Below are positions 23,949-48,507 of a stretch of DNA of 64,000 nt, one piece after another. Every line of letters begins with the position of its first letter. Positions within the stretch are counted from its first letter, which is position 1. The DNA lies in NCBI GenBank assembly GCA_902625325.1, contig CACOAW010000005.1, positions 41,997 through 105,996 on the forward strand, written 5' to 3'. The notes beneath the pieces were generated by a model. The model saw only the letters and a program-made list of their open reading frames with translations, had not been told where the DNA came from and ran no database searches. Both the position numbers and the translations under genes were made by a program. The stretch comes from an uncultured Candidatus Poseidoniales archaeon (GTDB taxonomy: Archaea > Thermoplasmatota > Poseidoniia > Poseidoniales > Thalassarchaeaceae).

Positions 23949-24113
23949 CTACCTGTGGTTCATTTTTCCAGAAATTAGGAAAAGTAGGAGCCCCAATCCG
24001 ATAGCGAAGCATGCGTCTATAGGCGTCCATAGGTATCTCATTATCACAAAAAAAACCCCCAAGGAAGATAGGATCAGGAGGATTCCGGGTATAATCCCGC
24101 TTTGATGCATCAT
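23949..24113 (-). CDS. 54-aa two-TM microprotein (not in ORF track)
   Basis: Translated by eye: MMHQSGIIPGILLILSSLGVFFVIMRYLWTPIDACFAIGLGLLLFLISGKMNHR*. Confidence 0.5.
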   Translation of the reverse strand: MMHQSGIIPGILLILSSLGVFFVIMRYLWTPIDACFAIGLGLLLFLISGKMNHR

Positions 24114-25255
24114 AGTGCATCCATTAGCTTGGTCATTTCTCGGGAAATAACGATCCTCTGGATCTGGCTCGTACCACCAAATATCTGGTATATTTTGGCC
24201 CCTCTCATTCTCCTGGCAGCGGGGAACTCCTCCGAGTACCCATAACCTCCGAAGATCTGTACCGCGTCGGTGGTCACTTCCATCCCGATGTCAGCAGCGT
24301 ATCTCTTCGCGTGTGCGGATTCAAGGGTTGCCCTCTCTCCCAAATCTAGCTTTCTTGCCGAATTTCGGGCAAGTAGCCTTGCTGCTTCTATCTTTGTTGC
24401 CATATCTGCTAGCATAAATGATATTGATTGATGCTCTATGATTGGTCTGGAGAAAGCTTCTCTCTGAGTTGCATACTTCCAAGCTTCCTCCATTGCACCC
24501 TGGGCGTTGCCCAAGGCATGTGATGCGAGCATAGGCCTCGAACGGTCGAAAGCGATCATTGCCTGGATCCACCCATTTCCCTCCTCATGTCCCAACAGGT
24601 TCGACTTAGGAATCAAAACATCATCGAAACTTACTCCTCTTGTGTCAGAGGATCTCTGCCCCATTTTCTCTTCCTTCTTTCCTATGTTGATGCCTGGGGT
24701 GTCGGCATCTACTATGAAACCACTAAGAGATTCATGGGGGCCACCATCCCCAGTTCTGGCTAGGACGTAGAACCAGTCGGCATAACCGGCCCCGCCAATC
24801 CACATTTTCGACCCATTTATTCTGTAGTTTTCACCTTCTAATTTGGCCGAGGTCTTTATCGCTTTGACATCTGAACCGGCTCCCGGTTCAGTGACGCAAT
24901 AAGCAGATATCTGACCATCGGCAACCCGACCAAGATACTCTTTCTTTTGCTCCTCCGTCCCACTGTGAATTACCGGATGGCAGGCTAGCATTGTGACTCC
25001 TGTAATTGTGGCAAATCCCGGATCCCCCCTGCCAAGCTCCTCGTTAATTACTACCTCATCGAGAAAACTGAGGCCTGTTCCACCATACTTCTCGGGTATT
25101 GTGCAGTTTAGTAATCCGAGATTTCTCGCATTTTCAATAGCCATGGAGGGAAATGTCCCCTCCCTGTCCCATTCCTCGGCGTTCGGAATTAATTCTTGAT
25201 CTGCGAACTCCCTTGCCAGCGACTGTAGCATAACCTGATCTTCACTTAATTGCAT
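24110..25255 (-). CDS. acyl-CoA dehydrogenase
   Basis: YCVTEPGAGSD, RPMLASHALGNAQGA, QIFGGYGYSEEFPAARRMRGAKIYQIFGGTSQIQ. Confidence 0.97.
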   Translation of the reverse strand: MQLSEDQVMLQSLAREFADQELIPNAEEWDREGTFPSMAIENARNLGLLNCTIPEKYGGTGLSFLDEVVINEELGRGDPGFATITGVTMLACHPVIHSGTEEQKKEYLGRVADGQISAYCVTEPGAGSDVKAIKTSAKLEGENYRINGSKMWIGGAGYADWFYVLARTGDGGPHESLSGFIVDADTPGINIGKKEEKMGQRSSDTRGVSFDDVLIPKSNLLGHEEGNGWIQAMIAFDRSRPMLASHALGNAQGAMEEAWKYATQREAFSRPIIEHQSISFMLADMATKIEAARLLARNSARKLDLGERATLESAHAKRYAADIGMEVTTDAVQIFGGYGYSEEFPAARRMRGAKIYQIFGGTSQIQRIVISREMTKLMDAL

Positions 25256-25310
25256 AACTTTCCACCATACTTACCCCATGCCATGAAATTAAACTATTGT
25301 AGGTTTGTTT

Positions 25311-25326
25311 TTTAGGGTACCCTAAA
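25311..25326. promoter_or_regulatory. 16-bp perfect palindrome in divergent promoter
   Basis: TTTAGGGTACCCTAAA between the acyl-CoA dehydrogenase start (25255) and the M28-ZIP start (25356). Confidence 0.5.
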
Positions 25327-25355
25327 GGTATACAAACCGAAGTATTGGCGGATTT

Positions 25356-27677
25356 ATGGGCTTAGTGACCCCTTCCAGGATAGATTCCCTTGGTTTAGTT
25401 TCAATATTCGTACTCGGTGCTTCTCTCTACGCGGGTTTTTTTCTCCATGATGAAAGGGTAGAGTTCGACGTAGATGGTAGGGAGATAGTAGCCGACGCAG
25501 GCAACATCAGCAGCTTCGGACCGAGAGTCTCGGGTTCCCCGGCGGAGGCGGACGCTTCGACTATGATTGCTGAGATGTTTGTGGAGGCGGGTTTGGCGGA
25601 TGTTGAAGTCACTGAGTTCGAGATACCAGGTTCCTGGATACAACAACCGGAGGATGGAGAAGAGGGGATTCACATGCATGCTCAGATAGAGCAGGGGGCT
25701 CAGAATATACCCGGTTTCCCGGACGGGACTGCTGGTTCAGGGCGTGTGCAACTCTCCTCCACAGGAGATTTGGATCACATGAGTGCCTTCACCTTCCTCG
25801 GTTACTCGGGCGGAGCTCACAAGCACGACAGTGAGTTGGCAGATTTGGGCACCGGTACGGCTGAGGAGTTCTCGAATGCAGGAGACATCTTGGATAAAGC
25901 AATTTTAGTCAAACATGATTCACAGACCACTGGTAGGCTCCTATCGGACTACTACAAAGACGCAATTGAGGCAGGAGCCTCTGTCCTGATGATTTACGAA
26001 GATGGACTGGAGAATACATATTTTGAACCGGTCGTGGTAATACGCGATGACGGACAGATCGTTCCATTTCCCGTCGCATACCCAGAATTAGATTTGATAC
26101 CATATATTTTCATCACTCAAAGCACTGCTGATATTTTTATCGATTTCATAGAAGAGGCTGATTCAGACAGCACGAAATACGCCATCCTCGATGGAAACTG
26201 GGCAGCAGCACAGACCGGTCCAAGGGTAGTCAGCGTGGTGACTGGCGAGTTACCCGGAAAATCCTCCTCGACGGTCATGATTGGTTCTCATCATGATACT
26301 GCTTACTTCAGTGAAGGTCAACCAACTGAATCTTTGGGTGTTGCTCAGATTATCGAGATAGCCAGAGAGCTTGGTTCGCATGAACTAGAACATACCGTTA
26401 GGTTCGCCTCATGGGGAGGGGAGGAACTCGGGTTACTGAGCAGTCAGGCGTACGCGGACCAGCTGCAAGACAAATCAGAGATAGAGTTGTACATAAATTT
26501 GGACTCAGCGGTCCTGAGCGAGAGTCTTGGATTTAATTCGATAACGATAGAGGCATCTAGTGGGCAACTAGCCGAGAAAGCCAAGTCATCTGCCAGTAGG
26601 TCTCTGGAGGGGCACTCCAGTTATTCGGCTCTGGTCATCGCCAATGAGGGTCCGGACTCGATAATTCACGGTTGCAGCAGCCATAGGAGCTTCAATTTGA
26701 TTGGTTCCCAGAGTATCGGAATAGGCCCGCAGAGAGATCTCCCCACATCTAGCGAGATATGGCCTATGTGCGCTCACTATCGAGAGTATCAGCCTCCAGA
26801 TATTCAAGCAGGAGGGCTCGACGAGGCAGGCGCGGCATTGGTCCCCGACCTCGTGCTGAACATAATGGAGTCATATGGGGCGATAGGAAACGACGGGCCG
26901 TTGATAAAATTGGATGGTCTTGAGGGAAGTTCGGAAAATTGGGTTTTCCCGTTCACAATAGCGCTTTTGGCTGGGCTAGCTACCGGTCTTGGCGGATTGA
27001 TAGTTTTGTTTATCAGGGAAATCAGTCGGGAATTAATGGCATTCATGCTGGGTATGGCAGCGGGAGTTATGCTCCTAATTTCGATCCTAGATCTTCTGAT
27101 AGGGCAGGCCTCGGAATTTGGTTATTTCCCAGTCATAACCTCATTCGTGATTGGGGGCTTGCTGATTCTCTTAATCGGTAAAGTTGTGGTCAAGAGAGGA
27201 GAGGAGGATTTGATGACAGAGGAGAATAAGCTTTACTTTTCGGGAATTTTCACAGCCATCGCTTTGGGGATACACAATTTCCCGGAAGGATTGGCCATAG
27301 GTGTCGCAGTCCTGGAATCCGCCCAATACGGGGTTGTTCTCATGATTGCGATAGGACTACACAACATTCCAGAGGGCATCGCAGTCGCAGCTCCAATCAA
27401 GGCTGGCGGGGGAGGAAAAATCAAAACAATACTGATACCCATGGCAACTGGGCTCACGGAACCTCTCGGGGCCTTATTCGCTCTACTTATTCTGGGCTCG
27501 TTTTTGACCCCGTTGATGGTGGGCCTGTCACTAGCCTTTGTAGGGGGCATAATGGCAGTAATCAGCTTCACAGAAATTATCCCTCAGGCGATTAATCAGG
27601 ACAGGACTCGATACATGTTGGTGGGTATACTCTTTGGTGCAGCAGTAATGCAGCTGAGCTTAATCCTGCTTGAATAA
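25356..27677 (+). CDS. M28-family peptidase fused to a C-terminal ZIP metal transporter
   Basis: M28-like MIGSHHDTAYF ... FASWGGEELGLLSS ... INLDSAV; ZIP signatures GIHNFPEGLAIG and GLHNIPEGIAVAAP. Confidence 0.9.
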   Translation: MGLVTPSRIDSLGLVSIFVLGASLYAGFFLHDERVEFDVDGREIVADAGNISSFGPRVSGSPAEADASTMIAEMFVEAGLADVEVTEFEIPGSWIQQPEDGEEGIHMHAQIEQGAQNIPGFPDGTAGSGRVQLSSTGDLDHMSAFTFLGYSGGAHKHDSELADLGTGTAEEFSNAGDILDKAILVKHDSQTTGRLLSDYYKDAIEAGASVLMIYEDGLENTYFEPVVVIRDDGQIVPFPVAYPELDLIPYIFITQSTADIFIDFIEEADSDSTKYAILDGNWAAAQTGPRVVSVVTGELPGKSSSTVMIGSHHDTAYFSEGQPTESLGVAQIIEIARELGSHELEHTVRFASWGGEELGLLSSQAYADQLQDKSEIELYINLDSAVLSESLGFNSITIEASSGQLAEKAKSSASRSLEGHSSYSALVIANEGPDSIIHGCSSHRSFNLIGSQSIGIGPQRDLPTSSEIWPMCAHYREYQPPDIQAGGLDEAGAALVPDLVLNIMESYGAIGNDGPLIKLDGLEGSSENWVFPFTIALLAGLATGLGGLIVLFIREISRELMAFMLGMAAGVMLLISILDLLIGQASEFGYFPVITSFVIGGLLILLIGKVVVKRGEEDLMTEENKLYFSGIFTAIALGIHNFPEGLAIGVAVLESAQYGVVLMIAIGLHNIPEGIAVAAPIKAGGGGKIKTILIPMATGLTEPLGALFALLILGSFLTPLMVGLSLAFVGGIMAVISFTEIIPQAINQDRTRYMLVGILFGAAVMQLSLILLE

Positions 27678-27793: not shown

Positions 27794-28516
27794 CTATTTG
27801 TCATTGGTCATTAATTTGGGTTTCAATAACATTCCCAACGAAAGTAGGATCAAAGTTGGTATGAAAAATATTATTCCATAAATTCCTGTGACACAAAAAG
27901 GCACAGATGCAACAATTCCTATTCGATACAAGGATTTTTTTTCAGGCGATGTGTTGTTGGCCTCGTTCAAAAAAGTAAGGGCTAATGGCGGGAAAATAGA
28001 TAGCCACATAATCGAAGTAAAAAGACCGCTGCTCCAAAACCAAGGATCCCCATGTATGTGTAGAAAAATAATCCAGATTACACATGCCATGGCATACGAT
28101 GCGGTGAATGGAATGGATTTCTCGATCATCCCACCCTGCAGCAAAAAATTGTGGCCCAAGAAGATCAAGTAAACGGGCGAAAGAATCACCCAAGCCCAGA
28201 ATAGATCATCGTCACCTGTTGTGAACATCATTGACCAAACTATCGTCATGATGATTGACATTCCGGCAAGCGCTGTCGGAAGCCTCTCTGCAGAGGCGGG
28301 GGAGGGTTCATGATCGGTAGTATGGTGAGTTCTTTCTGTCGTTGAAACCTGCCAAAACCTCCAAGCTCCGAAAGAAAAGAGTGAACCCCCGATGATCAGC
28401 ACACGCCCAAATGCATCGGTCGCTGGGTTCAATGCCTGTTGAATCCCAAACAGTGTCATTGAGACGCCCAACAACGCTAAGAAACCGTAATTGAGATTAT
28501 TCCGCCATTCCTCCAT
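27794..28516 (-). CDS. polytopic membrane protein, repeat-encoded N-terminus (copy 1)
   Basis: N-terminal ~85 aa identical to 31251..31856; distinct C-terminus. Confidence 0.7.
   Translation of the reverse strand: MEEWRNNLNYGFLALLGVSMTLFGIQQALNPATDAFGRVLIIGGSLFSFGAWRFWQVSTTERTHHTTDHEPSPASAERLPTALAGMSIIMTIVWSMMFTTGDDDLFWAWVILSPVYLIFLGHNFLLQGGMIEKSIPFTASYAMACVIWIIFLHIHGDPWFWSSGLFTSIMWLSIFPPLALTFLNEANNTSPEKKSLYRIGIVASVPFCVTGIYGIIFFIPTLILLSLGMLLKPKLMTNDK
28252..28508 (-). repeat. 257-bp perfect inverted repeat, left copy
   Basis: Reverse complement matches 31298-31554 base for base on manual alignment (ATGGCGGAATAATCTC...GGAATGTCAATCA). Confidence 0.95.
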
Positions 28517-28687
28517 ATTGCCTAGGTCGATAGTGCCCCTCTATGATGTATGCCCAATGATGAGGCCCTAGATTGTGGGGGCAAAAGCAAGGGTAACCAT
28601 TGAATTGTGTGCTAATCATAGAGCCCTGGTTTACAACAAATCTCAGGGAGAGAACTCATATCTTGATGGGGCGGGGGATTACCATCC

Positions 28688-29266
28688 ATGGAAGAAGGAC
28701 CATTGTGGCCCCCGTTCGAGGGCACCATCCCATCACTCTCTCACAAGAGGCTGATAGCTTACTCCGTGGGCCCCCAGAACGTCGATCTGAGCTTCAAAAA
28801 GAGATTGGCCCATGAGAACGGCTGGGATCTGGCGATGGCCGAGAGAGCTTTCCAAGAATACAAGAGGTTCGCGTACATGTGCGTACACAGCGAAAATCCC
28901 TGCACGCCCTCGGTGGAGGTGGACCAGGTCTGGCACCTCCACATGACATACACAAGGGACTACTGGGGCAGGTTCTGCCCGGAGGTACTGGGTTACGAGC
29001 TGCACCATGGCCCTACCGAAGGAGGCAAGGCAGAGGATGAGAAGTACCTGGAGCAATACGAGCGTACCCTACTCTACTACCGGGAGGTCTTCGGTAGGGC
29101 GCCTCCTGAGGACCTATGGCCATCCCCGGAGGTCAGGTTCTCGTCATTCCCCCACCTAAGGTGGGTCGATCTCTCCAAGAACTCCATAACCCCGAGGAGC
29201 AGGATACTAATCGGGATTGGAGCCGTCGCTGTGGTTTCATTTATCATGGGATGGCTGTTGACATAG
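28688..29266 (+). CDS. GRDP/DUF1399-like protein
   Basis: PSVEVDQVWHLHMTYTRDYWGRFCPEVLGYELHHGPTEGG; C-terminal TM. Confidence 0.75.
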   Translation: MEEGPLWPPFEGTIPSLSHKRLIAYSVGPQNVDLSFKKRLAHENGWDLAMAERAFQEYKRFAYMCVHSENPCTPSVEVDQVWHLHMTYTRDYWGRFCPEVLGYELHHGPTEGGKAEDEKYLEQYERTLLYYREVFGRAPPEDLWPSPEVRFSSFPHLRWVDLSKNSITPRSRILIGIGAVAVVSFIMGWLLT

Positions 29267-29270
29267 TCGG

Positions 29271-31094
29271 ATGAGGGCCGTTGTCATTCAACTCAGTCTG
29301 CTAGTCCTCCTCTCCTCCTCCATCGCCATTGGCGAGCACAGCCCAGAAGGTGCCGGGACGGTGCCATTGATGCCGGACCCCCCCGAGGGCGAGTGGTACG
29401 TCCATGACATGGCTGGCGTGATATCCGAGCAGACCGAGGCCGAGTACGAGAATGAGTTATCGAGGATTAACGACGAGAGGGGCGTCCTGGTCAGGCTGGT
29501 GACGGTGAGCAGCATGAAACAGGCCAGCAACGGAATCTGCATGGGCGTCTCCTACAACTTCTGCTGGGACACGGAGTACTTCTCCGAAGACAATGGCTAC
29601 GCGAGGCAAATGTTCAGGCACTTCGGAATGGAAGGCGGGGACCAGCCGAGCATGCTGATAGCCCTCTCTACCGAGGACCGCCAGTTCAAGTTCGTGATGC
29701 CGGGCCTGTCGAAGACGACCCAGCGAGTCTCCCAGGGAGTCTTCGAAGATGGGTCATACAGGCTCAGCGAAGCCGCGGACATGTACGACCGCGATGATTA
29801 CATCTTTGAGTGGGACGGTTGGCAACGGTACCCCGGTGAGTGCGTCTGGGAGGGGGCCGGCGCGGAGTGGGTCAACAACTCGTGGCACTGCTACATGGAG
29901 ACCGATATGGACGGCTATCCATATTGGGACGTAAATTGGTACTTGTGCGAGAGCCACAATGACAACTGGTGGTGCACCGACGAGTACGGCCAGGACCCTG
30001 CCCACGGTGACTCAGAGAATGCTAGCCTGATGGCTCCGCCGCCCGAACCAGAGGGGCACGACTACTCCCGGGGCAACCTGTGGGAGGAGGCCCTCTCCTA
30101 CTACGTGTACGAGTCAGGCAAGCTTGTCTCCATAGAGCCGTGGGCGCTTTCCGTGCACTTGGCCGTCTACGCCATCGGGGCGCTCGGGCTGATCGCCCTA
30201 ATCTGGACATTGGGAAGTAACTTCCTCGAGGTATCCAGACAAAGGGAGTATGACCTCGCGAGGGAGCGACTGACCTACGCCTACGCCAGGAGGAGGGCGG
30301 ACCTGTCCCTCAAGAGCCTGAAGGGAGACGAGGACGGGACGGTCTTCGAGACCATGGCAGACCAGATAGAGTCCCTCTCCATCGAGCTGAGGAAGGACCC
30401 CGAGGAGATTCTCGGTTTACTGCTTTCAGATAAAGACGACCATGATCGAGACCGGGACCTTGAGAAGATCTGCGCAGAGCTCAACAAGAGGGCCGACGAC
30501 GCAGGGGTGTCCGGTCAGGTCACCATCCCCGACGTGGACATGACCTGGGAGGTAGGCATGCTCAAGGAGGCAGGAGACAGGTGGGACAGGGTGAACAGGG
30601 TGGCAGTGCCCCTAGGCCTGGCCGTGCTGGCTACAGGCTTGTACCTCGGCCTCGGACTGAATGCGGGCGGACCCTTCTCCCTCGGCGAATGGGCCTTTGA
30701 AAACCCAGGATACCTATTCGAAGGTGGCGGATTCGGCACCATTTTGATGATTACAGCCATCTTCCCGTTCGCCGCGATGGTGCAGGGTCTGATGGACAGC
30801 GACGAGCTCGTCCGCGCCGTCGCCCCTCCCAGGAACCCCCTTCTCCCGATACGGAGGCCTTCCCCGAGTCTCAGGGTTGCCGACACTCACAACATGGTTA
30901 TCCCTGCCTCATTGGCCGGGGCCTTCGTCTCCTCACGCTACTTGGTCAGAAGCGCTGGGTTCGACGAGCACGGCAACGAGATCTACGAGACTGAGAGGAG
31001 CCACAGCGGTGGCGGTGGCGGAAGCGACGGTGGCGGTGGCTGCGGTGGCGGTGGCTGCGGTGGCGGTGGCTGCGGTGGCGGAGGCGGATTCTGA
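29271..31094 (+). CDS. TPM-domain membrane protein with Gly/Cys-rich C-terminal repeats
   Basis: WYVHDMAGVISEQTEAEYENELSRINDERGVLVRLVTV; TM helices; ends CGGGGCGGGGCGGGGCGGGGGF. Confidence 0.75.
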   Translation: MRAVVIQLSLLVLLSSSIAIGEHSPEGAGTVPLMPDPPEGEWYVHDMAGVISEQTEAEYENELSRINDERGVLVRLVTVSSMKQASNGICMGVSYNFCWDTEYFSEDNGYARQMFRHFGMEGGDQPSMLIALSTEDRQFKFVMPGLSKTTQRVSQGVFEDGSYRLSEAADMYDRDDYIFEWDGWQRYPGECVWEGAGAEWVNNSWHCYMETDMDGYPYWDVNWYLCESHNDNWWCTDEYGQDPAHGDSENASLMAPPPEPEGHDYSRGNLWEEALSYYVYESGKLVSIEPWALSVHLAVYAIGALGLIALIWTLGSNFLEVSRQREYDLARERLTYAYARRRADLSLKSLKGDEDGTVFETMADQIESLSIELRKDPEEILGLLLSDKDDHDRDRDLEKICAELNKRADDAGVSGQVTIPDVDMTWEVGMLKEAGDRWDRVNRVAVPLGLAVLATGLYLGLGLNAGGPFSLGEWAFENPGYLFEGGGFGTILMITAIFPFAAMVQGLMDSDELVRAVAPPRNPLLPIRRPSPSLRVADTHNMVIPASLAGAFVSSRYLVRSAGFDEHGNEIYETERSHSGGGGGSDGGGGCGGGGCGGGGCGGGGGF

Positions 31095-31250
31095 ATCGGG
31101 CAATATGGCGAGGATGATTAGTCGTTAGAATCGATAGAATGAATGACAATTGCATAACCAAGGAAGTAGGCTTCTGACGTATCGCAAAGGGGTCATTGGT
31201 TAGACGCTGTATTGTCAAAATGAGGTAGGTTAAACCCCCAATCGATTGAA

Positions 31251-31856
31251 GTGATAATAGCCTTTAGAAATGCCATGGCCATTGTTCAAACATTTTCATG
31301 GCGGAATAATCTCAATTACGGTTTCTTAGCGTTGTTGGGCGTCTCAATGACACTGTTTGGGATTCAACAGGCATTGAACCCAGCGACCGATGCATTTGGG
31401 CGTGTGCTGATCATCGGGGGTTCACTCTTTTCTTTCGGAGCTTGGAGGTTTTGGCAGGTTTCAACGACAGAAAGAACTCACCATACTACCGATCATGAAC
31501 CCTCCCCCGCCTCTGCAGAGAGGCTTCCGACAGCGCTTGCCGGAATGTCAATCAGGGATGGTTTCTACCTCCCTTTGAAGATTTACGCACCGCTTTCGAT
31601 TATATCCTACTTCAATGAGGTGCAGAATGGTTGCTTCGATCCTTTTACAAATAGTTGCCCACAACCGCCTTCATACTATTATTTGCCTCTGATTGCTGCT
31701 CTTATCCTTGCCCTGACTCTTCTGGCAAACGCCTGGAGGCTTAGGAGTCATGAGAGAGATTTTTCCAAGGGTTTAGCCTTAGGAACAGTCGTTGGTGCTT
31801 TCATCTTCTTCATATTCATGATGGGTGGTTTCTGGGGTTGGGATCTCTTCATTTAG
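31251..31856 (+). CDS. polytopic membrane protein, repeat-encoded N-terminus (copy 2); possible start ATG 31275
   Basis: N-terminal ~85 aa identical to 27794..28516; unrelated C-terminal half. Confidence 0.65.
   Translation: MIIAFRNAMAIVQTFSWRNNLNYGFLALLGVSMTLFGIQQALNPATDAFGRVLIIGGSLFSFGAWRFWQVSTTERTHHTTDHEPSPASAERLPTALAGMSIRDGFYLPLKIYAPLSIISYFNEVQNGCFDPFTNSCPQPPSYYYLPLIAALILALTLLANAWRLRSHERDFSKGLALGTVVGAFIFFIFMMGGFWGWDLFI
31298..31554 (+). repeat. 257-bp perfect inverted repeat, right copy
   Basis: See 28252-28508; spacer 2789 bp. Confidence 0.95.
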
Positions 31857-32400: not shown

Positions 32401-32584
32401 ATGATGTATGCGTCATTCAGGGTAGGGAATATGATGCCCCCGAGTACCACGGTTGCTTTGTGACGTATCCATAATCCAGGGGTCTACCTTCAGACCCATT
32501 GTGGTGGGCTCTGCCATTGAGGGGACCCGATGACCCTCGATGATGCCGGTGTATTCACGTTACCCTGAATTACGCATACATCAT
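32401..32584. mobile_element. MITE-like element with 24-bp terminal inverted repeats (family B, complete copy)
   Basis: ATGATGTATGCGTCATTCAGGGTA ... TACCCTGAATTACGCATACATCAT, 23/24 match; non-coding interior shared with other copies. Confidence 0.8.
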
Positions 32585-32608
32585 AGAGCGGGCCCATTAC
32601 CCCCCTAC

Positions 32609-34384: not shown

Positions 34385-34960
34385 ATGACCGACGTCTATG
34401 TTCTCAAACTAGCAAATGGTAACTACTACGTCGGGAAAACCGATCGCGGGGAAAAACGCCTCAAAGAACACGTGGCAGGGCGTGGTGCGGAGTGGACAAA
34501 ATTGCACAAGCCGAAGGAGATTCATGCCTACTATCGTAACTATGGTGACTCAGGAGAGAAGAAGGTGTTCAATCAGATGGTAAAAAAATACGGAGCGAAG
34601 AAAGTCCGAGGGGCCCACTTCACGAAAAGGAAGGCTTCCCCTGCTGAATTGAAGAAAATGAATGAGAGAGTCGGACTCAAAAAAAGGAGCACCAAGAGGA
34701 AGGCAACAACGAGGAAGGACCCTGCAAAGAAGACCACTAAGAGGAAGGCAACAACGAGGAAAGCCCCTGCAAAGAAGACCACCAAGAGGAAGGCAACAAC
34801 GAGGAAGGCCCCTGCAAAGAAGACCACCAAGAGGACAAAAACAAGTTCAAAGAAAAGTTACAGAAAGCCTGTGAAGAGCTACAGGAAGCCAGTGAAGAGC
34901 ATCAAAAAACCAAGCCCCAGAAAATCCAACAGAAGACCTTCACCGAGAAGAAGGTACTAG
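34385..34960 (+). CDS. GIY-YIG nuclease-like domain with Lys/Arg-rich histone-H1-like tail
   Basis: VYVLKLANGNYYVGKTDRGEKRLKEHVAG; tail of TKRKATTRKAPAKKT repeats. Confidence 0.8.
   Translation: MTDVYVLKLANGNYYVGKTDRGEKRLKEHVAGRGAEWTKLHKPKEIHAYYRNYGDSGEKKVFNQMVKKYGAKKVRGAHFTKRKASPAELKKMNERVGLKKRSTKRKATTRKDPAKKTTKRKATTRKAPAKKTTKRKATTRKAPAKKTTKRTKTSSKKSYRKPVKSYRKPVKSIKKPSPRKSNRRPSPRRRY
34691..34825 (+). repeat. three tandem 45-bp coding repeats
   Basis: acc aag agg aag gca aca acg agg aag gcc cct gca aag aag (x3, near-identical). Confidence 0.85.
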
Positions 34961-35778
34961 ACCTCCTGGTTTGGTGAAATAATCTCGTCTCTATGCCAAG
35001 GCTTTGTGTTCCAGTTGGCAGGTCTTTTGAACTGATTCCTTGAGTCGTGGAAGTCATTGTAAGTCGCATTCAGGACTCCCGCTGCCTGCCAAGCCCCTCC
35101 CTCCTTGCCCTTGATGCCCCTGACGTTGAGGGACCTAGCGACTGCAGTGGCGGAGATGTCGTTTTCCTCCATCTGCCAAAACATGTAGTCGATCCTGTCC
35201 TGCTCATTCCAGTTCGGGACCAGCTTGCCGTCGTCCCTCACGTTCCACCCGTATAGGGACCGGGTGAACCTCAGGAGGTTCCTCTTCAGGTATGCCATGC
35301 CGTCCCTCGTCCTCTCGGATATCAGGCCCCTTTCCATCTCCGCGAAGACGGCCACGACCTGCAGCATGGCCCTCCCGGTAGCCGTCCCCGTGTCCAGTGC
35401 CTGCCCGTCGAAGTCGAGGAAGTGAATCGCGATGCCCATAGAGTTGAGGTCGTCTATGGTGGTAATCGCATCGGCCACGTTCCGGAACATCCTGTCCACC
35501 TTGGTGGATATCACGTGCCTGTATCGGCCCGTCTCTATCCTCTTTAGGAACAGGCCTCCCGCGGGCCTGTCGAATAGCGGGATTCCCCCGCTGACGCCTC
35601 TTTCATGGATTATGTCCCTGCTTCTGATGGTCAGGCCGCGGTACTCTGCGTAGCTCTGTATCCTTCGGGTCTGCTGAGCGAGGCTGTTGCCGTCCTCCTC
35701 CTGCGATCCGGTGGAGACCCTGACGTAGGCGAGCGCCCTTTTGCTGGCTCGGGGTTCGGACATCACGCCTAACCCCAT
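34957..35778 (-). CDS. serine recombinase (resolvase/invertase family)
   Basis: LAYVRVSTGSQEEDGNSLAQQ, STKVDRMFRNVADAI, AEMERGLISERTRDGM. Confidence 0.93.
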   Translation of the reverse strand: MGLGVMSEPRASKRALAYVRVSTGSQEEDGNSLAQQTRRIQSYAEYRGLTIRSRDIIHERGVSGGIPLFDRPAGGLFLKRIETGRYRHVISTKVDRMFRNVADAITTIDDLNSMGIAIHFLDFDGQALDTGTATGRAMLQVVAVFAEMERGLISERTRDGMAYLKRNLLRFTRSLYGWNVRDDGKLVPNWNEQDRIDYMFWQMEENDISATAVARSLNVRGIKGKEGGAWQAAGVLNATYNDFHDSRNQFKRPANWNTKPWHRDEIISPNQEV

Positions 35779-38969: not shown

Positions 38970-38998
38970 TTAAATTTTCAAAAATTTTCTATCTTTCG

Positions 38999-39141
38999 TA
39001 ATGTGAATTCCACTGGCATCATCGAGGGTCTACTGAGCGACCCCTGAATGACAGAAGCCATCATCATGGGCCTACAGGTAAAACACTGGATTACGTATAC
39101 GTCACAAAGTAACCCTTAGACTGCTGGGCATCAATTACCCT
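38999..39141 (-). repeat. family B repeat, inverted copy
   Basis: GTGAATTCCACTGGCATCATCGAGGGT...GGGCCTACAGGTA...TTACGTATACGTCACAAAGTAACC...TACCCT. Confidence 0.7.
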
Positions 39142-39262
39142 AGGGAATCTGATGGATAGCAATACAACGGTTACTTGGTGACGTATTCATCATCCTAGGT
39201 TCTACCTACAGACCCATTATGATGGTCCGTACAAAGGAGGGTTCATTGAGAGGCCCCTGAAT
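39141..39262 (+). repeat. family B repeat, direct copy head-to-head with previous
   Basis: TAGGGAATCTGATGGATAGCAATACAACGGTTACTTGGTGACGTATTCAT...CTACCTACAGACCCATTATGATGGTCCGTA. Confidence 0.7.
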
Positions 39263-47092: not shown

Positions 47093-47240
47093 AGCCCGAT
47101 GTGTATGCGGGCGTCATCTAGGGTACACTGAGTAACCCCTCTAGTACAGAGGCCATCATGATGGGTTAGTAGGTAGAATCCATGGTTATGTTTACGTCAC
47201 AAAGTAACCGTTGTACTCGGGGGCATCATGTTCGCTACCG
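47093..47240 (-). repeat. family B repeat, inverted copy
   Basis: GTGTATGCGGGCGTCATCTAGGGTA...CATCATGATGGG...TTTACGTCACAAAGTAACCGTTGTACTCGGGGGCATCATG. Confidence 0.65.
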
Positions 47241-48327: not shown

Positions 48328-48507
48328 TATGCGGGCATACATCAGGGTAGGGATTATGATGGATAGCAATACAACGGTTACATTGTGACGTATACGTAAT
48401 TCTGGGTCTTACCTACAGGCCCATTATGATGGTCCGTATAATAGAGGGGTGGCTCAATTAACCCTCGATGATACTGGTAGAATTCACGTTACCCTTGATC
48501 CATATTC
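48328..48507 (+). repeat. family B repeat, direct copy
   Basis: GCGGGCATACATCAGGGTAGGGATTATGATGGATAGCAATACAACGGTTAC...TGACGTATACGTAAT...CTACAGGCCCATTATGATGGTCCGTA...GAATTCACGTTACCCT. Confidence 0.75.

Follow-up and report, generated by a model that had tools for sequence, protein, structure and literature searches.

A perfect 257-bp inverted repeat and apparently exchanged 5′ ends at two membrane-protein genes of a Poseidoniales archaeon

How did two oppositely oriented genes come to carry the same 257 bp at their 5′ ends, and could the DNA between them still flip? The locus lies in a 64-kb stretch of DNA (the window) from an incomplete 33-contig draft genome of the order Poseidoniales (1.42 Mb, 79% complete). 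A sequence-only reading of the window had reported a perfect 257-bp inverted repeat with a 2789-bp spacer, lying within two membrane-protein genes (here P1 and P2) that bracket two inner genes, and all of these elements were recovered with the extents that it had given (Table 1). The segments 28252-28508 and 31298-31554 are reverse complements at 257 of 257 positions, with a spacer of 2789 nt, and the arms sit inside P1 on the minus strand and P2 on the plus strand. No other exact inverted repeat of at least 22 nt exists in the window, and only two copies of the 257-bp sequence are present in the 33 contigs of the host genome. A chance origin of the repeat is excluded. Searches of Rfam and of viral contigs returned no match. 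The spacer is GC-richer than its flanks, as had been noted from the sequence (58-61% versus 45-48%).

Table 1. Positions of the features of the locus within the window
Feature	Position	Strand	Description
P1	27794..28516	-	ORF, 240 aa; polytopic membrane protein
P1 body (C-terminal part, downstream of repeat)	27794..28251	-	Identity to G195 58%, G286 55%, G191 64%
Left repeat arm	28252..28508	-	Codons for P1 residues 4-88 (WRNN...GMSI); 257/257 match to 31298-31554
Left 5′ flank, now in front of P1	28509..28590	-	ATG GAG GA; promoter-like GCATACATCATA at ~28542-28553
Native GRDP-like upstream region	28601..28687	+	28601-28765 92% identical to G182:C42:3840-4004
GRDP-like (DUF1399-like) protein	28688..29266	+	192 aa, one C-terminal hydrophobic segment; other genera of its family have ~70% identical orthologs
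TPM-domain protein	29271..31094	+	607 aa, Gly/Cys-rich tail; PF04536 at 7.8e-08
Right 5′ flank, now in front of P2	31217..31297	+	P1 orthologs have a similar native 5′ end; ATG at 31275 (MAIVQTFS)
P2	31251..31856	+	ORF, 201 aa
Right repeat arm	31298..31554	+	In frame, at the P2 start; first bases ATGGCGG, last ATCA
P2 body	31554..31856	+	In relatives, a stand-alone 111-112-aa gene without the repeat-coded module
Serine recombinase	34957-35778	-	3.4 kb right of the repeat

Comparison with relatives assigned the repeat to P1, since full-length P1 relatives (G195, 58% identity; G286, 55%) join the repeat-coded N-terminal part and the P1 C-terminal part in one gene. An alignment-based search of named genomes returned three P1 relatives from marine group II archaea, recorded as Poseidoniales or Euryarchaeota: an ALOHA MAG (JAKUNX010000124.1), UBA10 and isolate AG-404-K16, which, judged from its name alone, reads as a single-cell genome. 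They share the order of the window genome and belong to a different family. The search of named genomes with the P1 sequence alone gave no match. An AlphaFold model of P1 was set aside (mean pLDDT of 50). At one further locus (L037 119-604, G188:C9), the P1 N-terminal module is fused to a different C-terminal part, which may be a further sign of module exchange.

The relatives of P2 have a different structure. The closest ones are stand-alone genes without the N-terminal part: that of G083 encodes 112 aa starting MEKWRAMIKG... and matches the P2 body at 69% protein and 73% DNA identity, and that of G173 encodes 111 aa starting MGQLRALGNG... (57% and 69%). The P2 protein of the window is thus a P1 segment fused to a P2 body, and P2 has gained approximately 85 residues as an in-frame copy from P1. 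The common N-terminus with unrelated C-termini, which had been described from the sequence, held on comparison, the C-terminal parts of P1 and P2 falling in different families. The start of P2 was revised: the ORF has the reported extent, but the start that fits the relatives is the ATG at 31275 (MAIVQTFS...) and not the GTG at 31251.

The two genes also appear to have exchanged their 5′ ends across the GRDP-like/TPM pair. Full-length P1 relatives start with MAIAQE(S/P)Q; P1 of the window starts with MEEWR, which resembles the MEKWR start of P2 in G083, and a P1-type start (FRNAMAIVQTFS) precedes the right copy, ahead of the P2 body. In DNA comparisons, the right flank matched the P1 DNA of G195 with a score of 46, which was reached by none of 5000 shuffles (in an independent run, a score of 49 against a maximum of 38 in 2000 shuffles). 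The left flank matched the P2 DNA of G083 with a score of 33, again reached by none of 5000 shuffles, the first seven bases of the repeat being included; a longer left flank without the first repeat bases gave a weaker match (61 of 3000 shuffles). The reciprocal comparisons were not significant, neither for the left flank with the P1 orthologs G195 and G286 (score 16 against G195; 2383 of 5000 shuffles) nor for the right flank with the P2 orthologs (score 15 against G083; 3764 of 5000). The DNA match of G286 was partly out of register, so G195 was used for DNA and both for protein. At the protein level, the P1 orthologs scored higher when P1 was given the opposite 5′ end (696 versus 688 and 665 versus 651). 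The match of the left flank to a P2-type 5′ end comes from one ortholog only (G083). The 5′ region of P2 in G173 was rejected as proof of the origin of the left flank, as it shared a common promoter-like motif only. Motifs like GCATACATCATA were present upstream of several genes (window positions 28542-28553, 32574-32585 and similar) and are perhaps a promoter element of the group.

The DNA between the arms is not a new element. The sequence-only reading had described a GC-richer two-gene cassette; the two genes are indeed there, but the GRDP-like/TPM pair occurs across the order, in many genomes of both families, and P1, P2 and the repeat are absent next to it in the stretches read. The same pair with the Gly/Cys tail was found in relatives such as G051, G067 and G153. 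The TPM assignment was confirmed. The GRDP/DUF1399-like label fared less well: the window protein had no significant match in Pfam, and a 70%-identical ortholog matches PF07173 at 0.0037, below the cut-off. The GRDP-like gene's own upstream DNA, similar to G182 from approximately position 28601, stops close to the left arm. At its left end, the spacer thus has native upstream DNA of this gene and then some 80 bp resembling a promoter and start of P2.

Taken relative to the relatives, the exchanged position of both 5′ ends supports an inversion, and the 257-bp segment, which is part of P1 in relatives and absent from native P2, is now paired in inverted orientation at both ends. We consider it probable that a real and recent rearrangement joined P1 and P2, in which the segment between them was inverted with 257 bp copied, and that ordinary recombination could flip it again. 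Most likely, a single rearrangement was the cause, either an inversion whose 257-bp break was staggered or an inverted copy made by templating, after which the arms recombined. The order that we infer for the ancestor is P1 body, repeat, P1 start, TPM gene, GRDP-like gene, P2 start and P2 body; it was found in no genome compared. In that ancestor, P1 (starting MAIVQTFSWR...) would have been oriented leftwards, preceded on its own strand by the TPM and GRDP-like genes; on the far side of these two genes, P2 (starting MEEWR...) would have been oriented rightwards. The P2 start would then have received an in-frame, inverted copy of 257 bp of P1 coding sequence, and the intervening segment would have been inverted. 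This would have left P1 under the promoter and start codon of P2, and P2 under the P1 promoter, carrying the first ~85 residues of P1. The first route could give this outcome in a single step, if P1 was broken in a staggered manner over 257 bp and the segment inverted; in the second, P2 would first receive the templated inverted copy, the arms would then recombine, and the product would be identical.

The junctions bear on how the pieces could have been joined. When P2 of the window is compared with that of G083, both internal junctions lie only a few codons apart, and common sequence is present at the repeat start. This start, ATGGCGG (Trp-Arg), may be common to both genes in their native form; at the ATCA of the repeat end, an Ile was probably present in native P2 as well. 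Such short common sequence would point to short-homology joining, though it is compatible with several repair routes. When the repeat was left out and the left flank joined straight to the P2 body, the frame was broken, which requires the loss or replacement of a few codons. Inversions 2h and 2q of Drosophila mojavensis carry inverted duplications at both breakpoints, explained by a staggered-break model (PMC3355041). As in that case, single-copy DNA has become an inverted pair, here bracketing a segment that was probably inverted, and a duplicated gene fragment yields a new gene. The archaeal locus differs in its domain and size (2.8 kb), in that both breaks lie in coding sequence and in its two in-frame reciprocal fusions; end joining, as in staggered-break inversions, is only a candidate route here.

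That the orthologous 5′ end of P1 is located exactly where the opposite orientation would put it also fits an unlikely alternative, in which the repeat and the in-frame P2 copy are genuine but the assembly gives the spacer a false or arbitrary orientation, so that P1 is native and only P2 is chimeric. The repeat is longer than usual short-read k-mers (257 bp), and the genome is in 33 contigs. In addition, P1- and P2-family genes lay close to contig ends far more often than control genes, an indirect sign of unstable loci, which would mean that these loci assemble badly: 6 of 11 P1-family genes (expected 0.97) and 9 of 29 P2-family genes (expected 2.0) were at most 500 nt from a contig end, versus 3 of 17 GRDP-like (expected 1.3) and 4 of 29 M28-ZIP genes (expected 2.0), with no clear excess in these controls. 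The excess suggests that the P1 and P2 families occupy repeated or strain-variable loci. Matches to these families were found in G195, G191, G188, G173, G144, G177, G314, G071, G294, G089, G238, G086, G310 and others. Against a wrong orientation stands the contig itself, which is unbroken through both arms and would usually require read-pair or long-read support; this is an argument and not a measurement. Even with a mis-oriented spacer, P2 would still contain its in-frame inverted copy.

That copy would be nonexistent if the inverted junctions were an amplification or assembly chimera made in vitro, for example by multiple displacement amplification, which we regard as extremely improbable. 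The order includes single-cell genomes, and most chimeras that arise when single cells are amplified are inverted, span short distances and are primed where short stretches match (PMC1855051). However, a chimera would require two separate junctions, at sites 250 bp apart in P1 yet only a few codons apart in P2, and both would have to be in frame and dominate the assembly.

The sequence-only reading had taken the perfect identity to imply recent duplication, gene conversion or ongoing inversion; a recent or homogenised copy is supported, but ongoing flipping is not. Its claim that a flip would swap the upstream DNA and the first residues of the two proteins was borne out, and both frames are open in either orientation (proteins of 245 and 188 aa). 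With perfect arms, ordinary homologous recombination could flip the segment, exchanging the promoter and the first 3-8 residues, and such passive flipping between 257-bp arms is plausible. A reversible two-gene switch, in which recombination between the arms would alternate promoter usage and the gene downstream of the GRDP-like/TPM pair, is improbable. Very improbable is a working switch, in which homologous recombination or a recombinase would turn the segment back and forth within the population and alternate the expression of P1 and P2. The identity of the arms, the open frames, the promoter-like DNA ahead of the left copy and the non-ancestral position of the 5′ ends speak for it, but no second orientation was seen, and no relative carries the repeat or kept the arrangement, which gives no sign of selection for it.

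The serine recombinase, found where it had been reported, lies close enough to be counted in favour of a switch, but it is outside the segment, and no site for a recombinase was found in the arms. It scored far below the cut-offs of the resolvase and large-serine-recombinase models, and indeed of every invertase or excisase model (30.6 versus 272 bits for the Mpi-type invertase model). No positive evidence pointed to it as the agent of inversion.

Known switches offer partial parallels. Invertible promoters (recombinase invertons such as those of Bacteroides) combine short repeats with a recombinase. A flip at the archaeal locus would likewise exchange the promoters of the flanking genes, but its repeats are 257 bp long and lie inside genes, and the segment holds two unrelated genes. 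Gene-altering programmed inversions were reportedly described by Milman and colleagues in 2023, and intragenic invertons reportedly by Chanin and colleagues in 2024; both are cited in PMC11892184. The archaeal locus resembles both in that the inverted repeats lie inside coding sequence and a flip changes which end is paired with which gene; unlike either, it was seen in one orientation and is not conserved, its nearby recombinase is at most a candidate, and a flip would mainly change the promoter and 3-8 residues.

The arrangement of the repeat was absent from all other sampled genomes of the genus and order. P1 and P2 were absent from 27 genomes of the same genus, with one weak P2-family match in G006. 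In two genomes matching the left flank of the locus (G157, 96% DNA identity; G078, 89%), the contigs end inside the M28-ZIP gene, just before P1. The acyl-CoA dehydrogenase and M28-peptidase/ZIP fusion genes at 24104-27589 have 96% DNA identity to G157, which belongs to another genus, and the fusion gene gave only weak partial matches in same-genus genomes; recent exchange of this region between genera is likely, judging from these identities. A dispersed intergenic repeat of approximately 100-150 nt (74-77% alike) was also observed, at 32420-32563, 38998-39225, 47110-47239 and 48342-48495; within its own genome, it occurs on this contig only, and it is also present in same-genus G006.

On the favoured reading of a real and recent rearrangement, the locus would present a gene fusion caught soon after its birth, in which a small gene gained a copied 85-residue module while the frames of both genes were kept, and one short rearrangement would have exchanged the promoters of two genes. 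Small membrane-protein families of marine group II archaea may recombine modules in such a manner. If the flipping continues, recombination would make the locus a simple switch, in a group without a cultured member.
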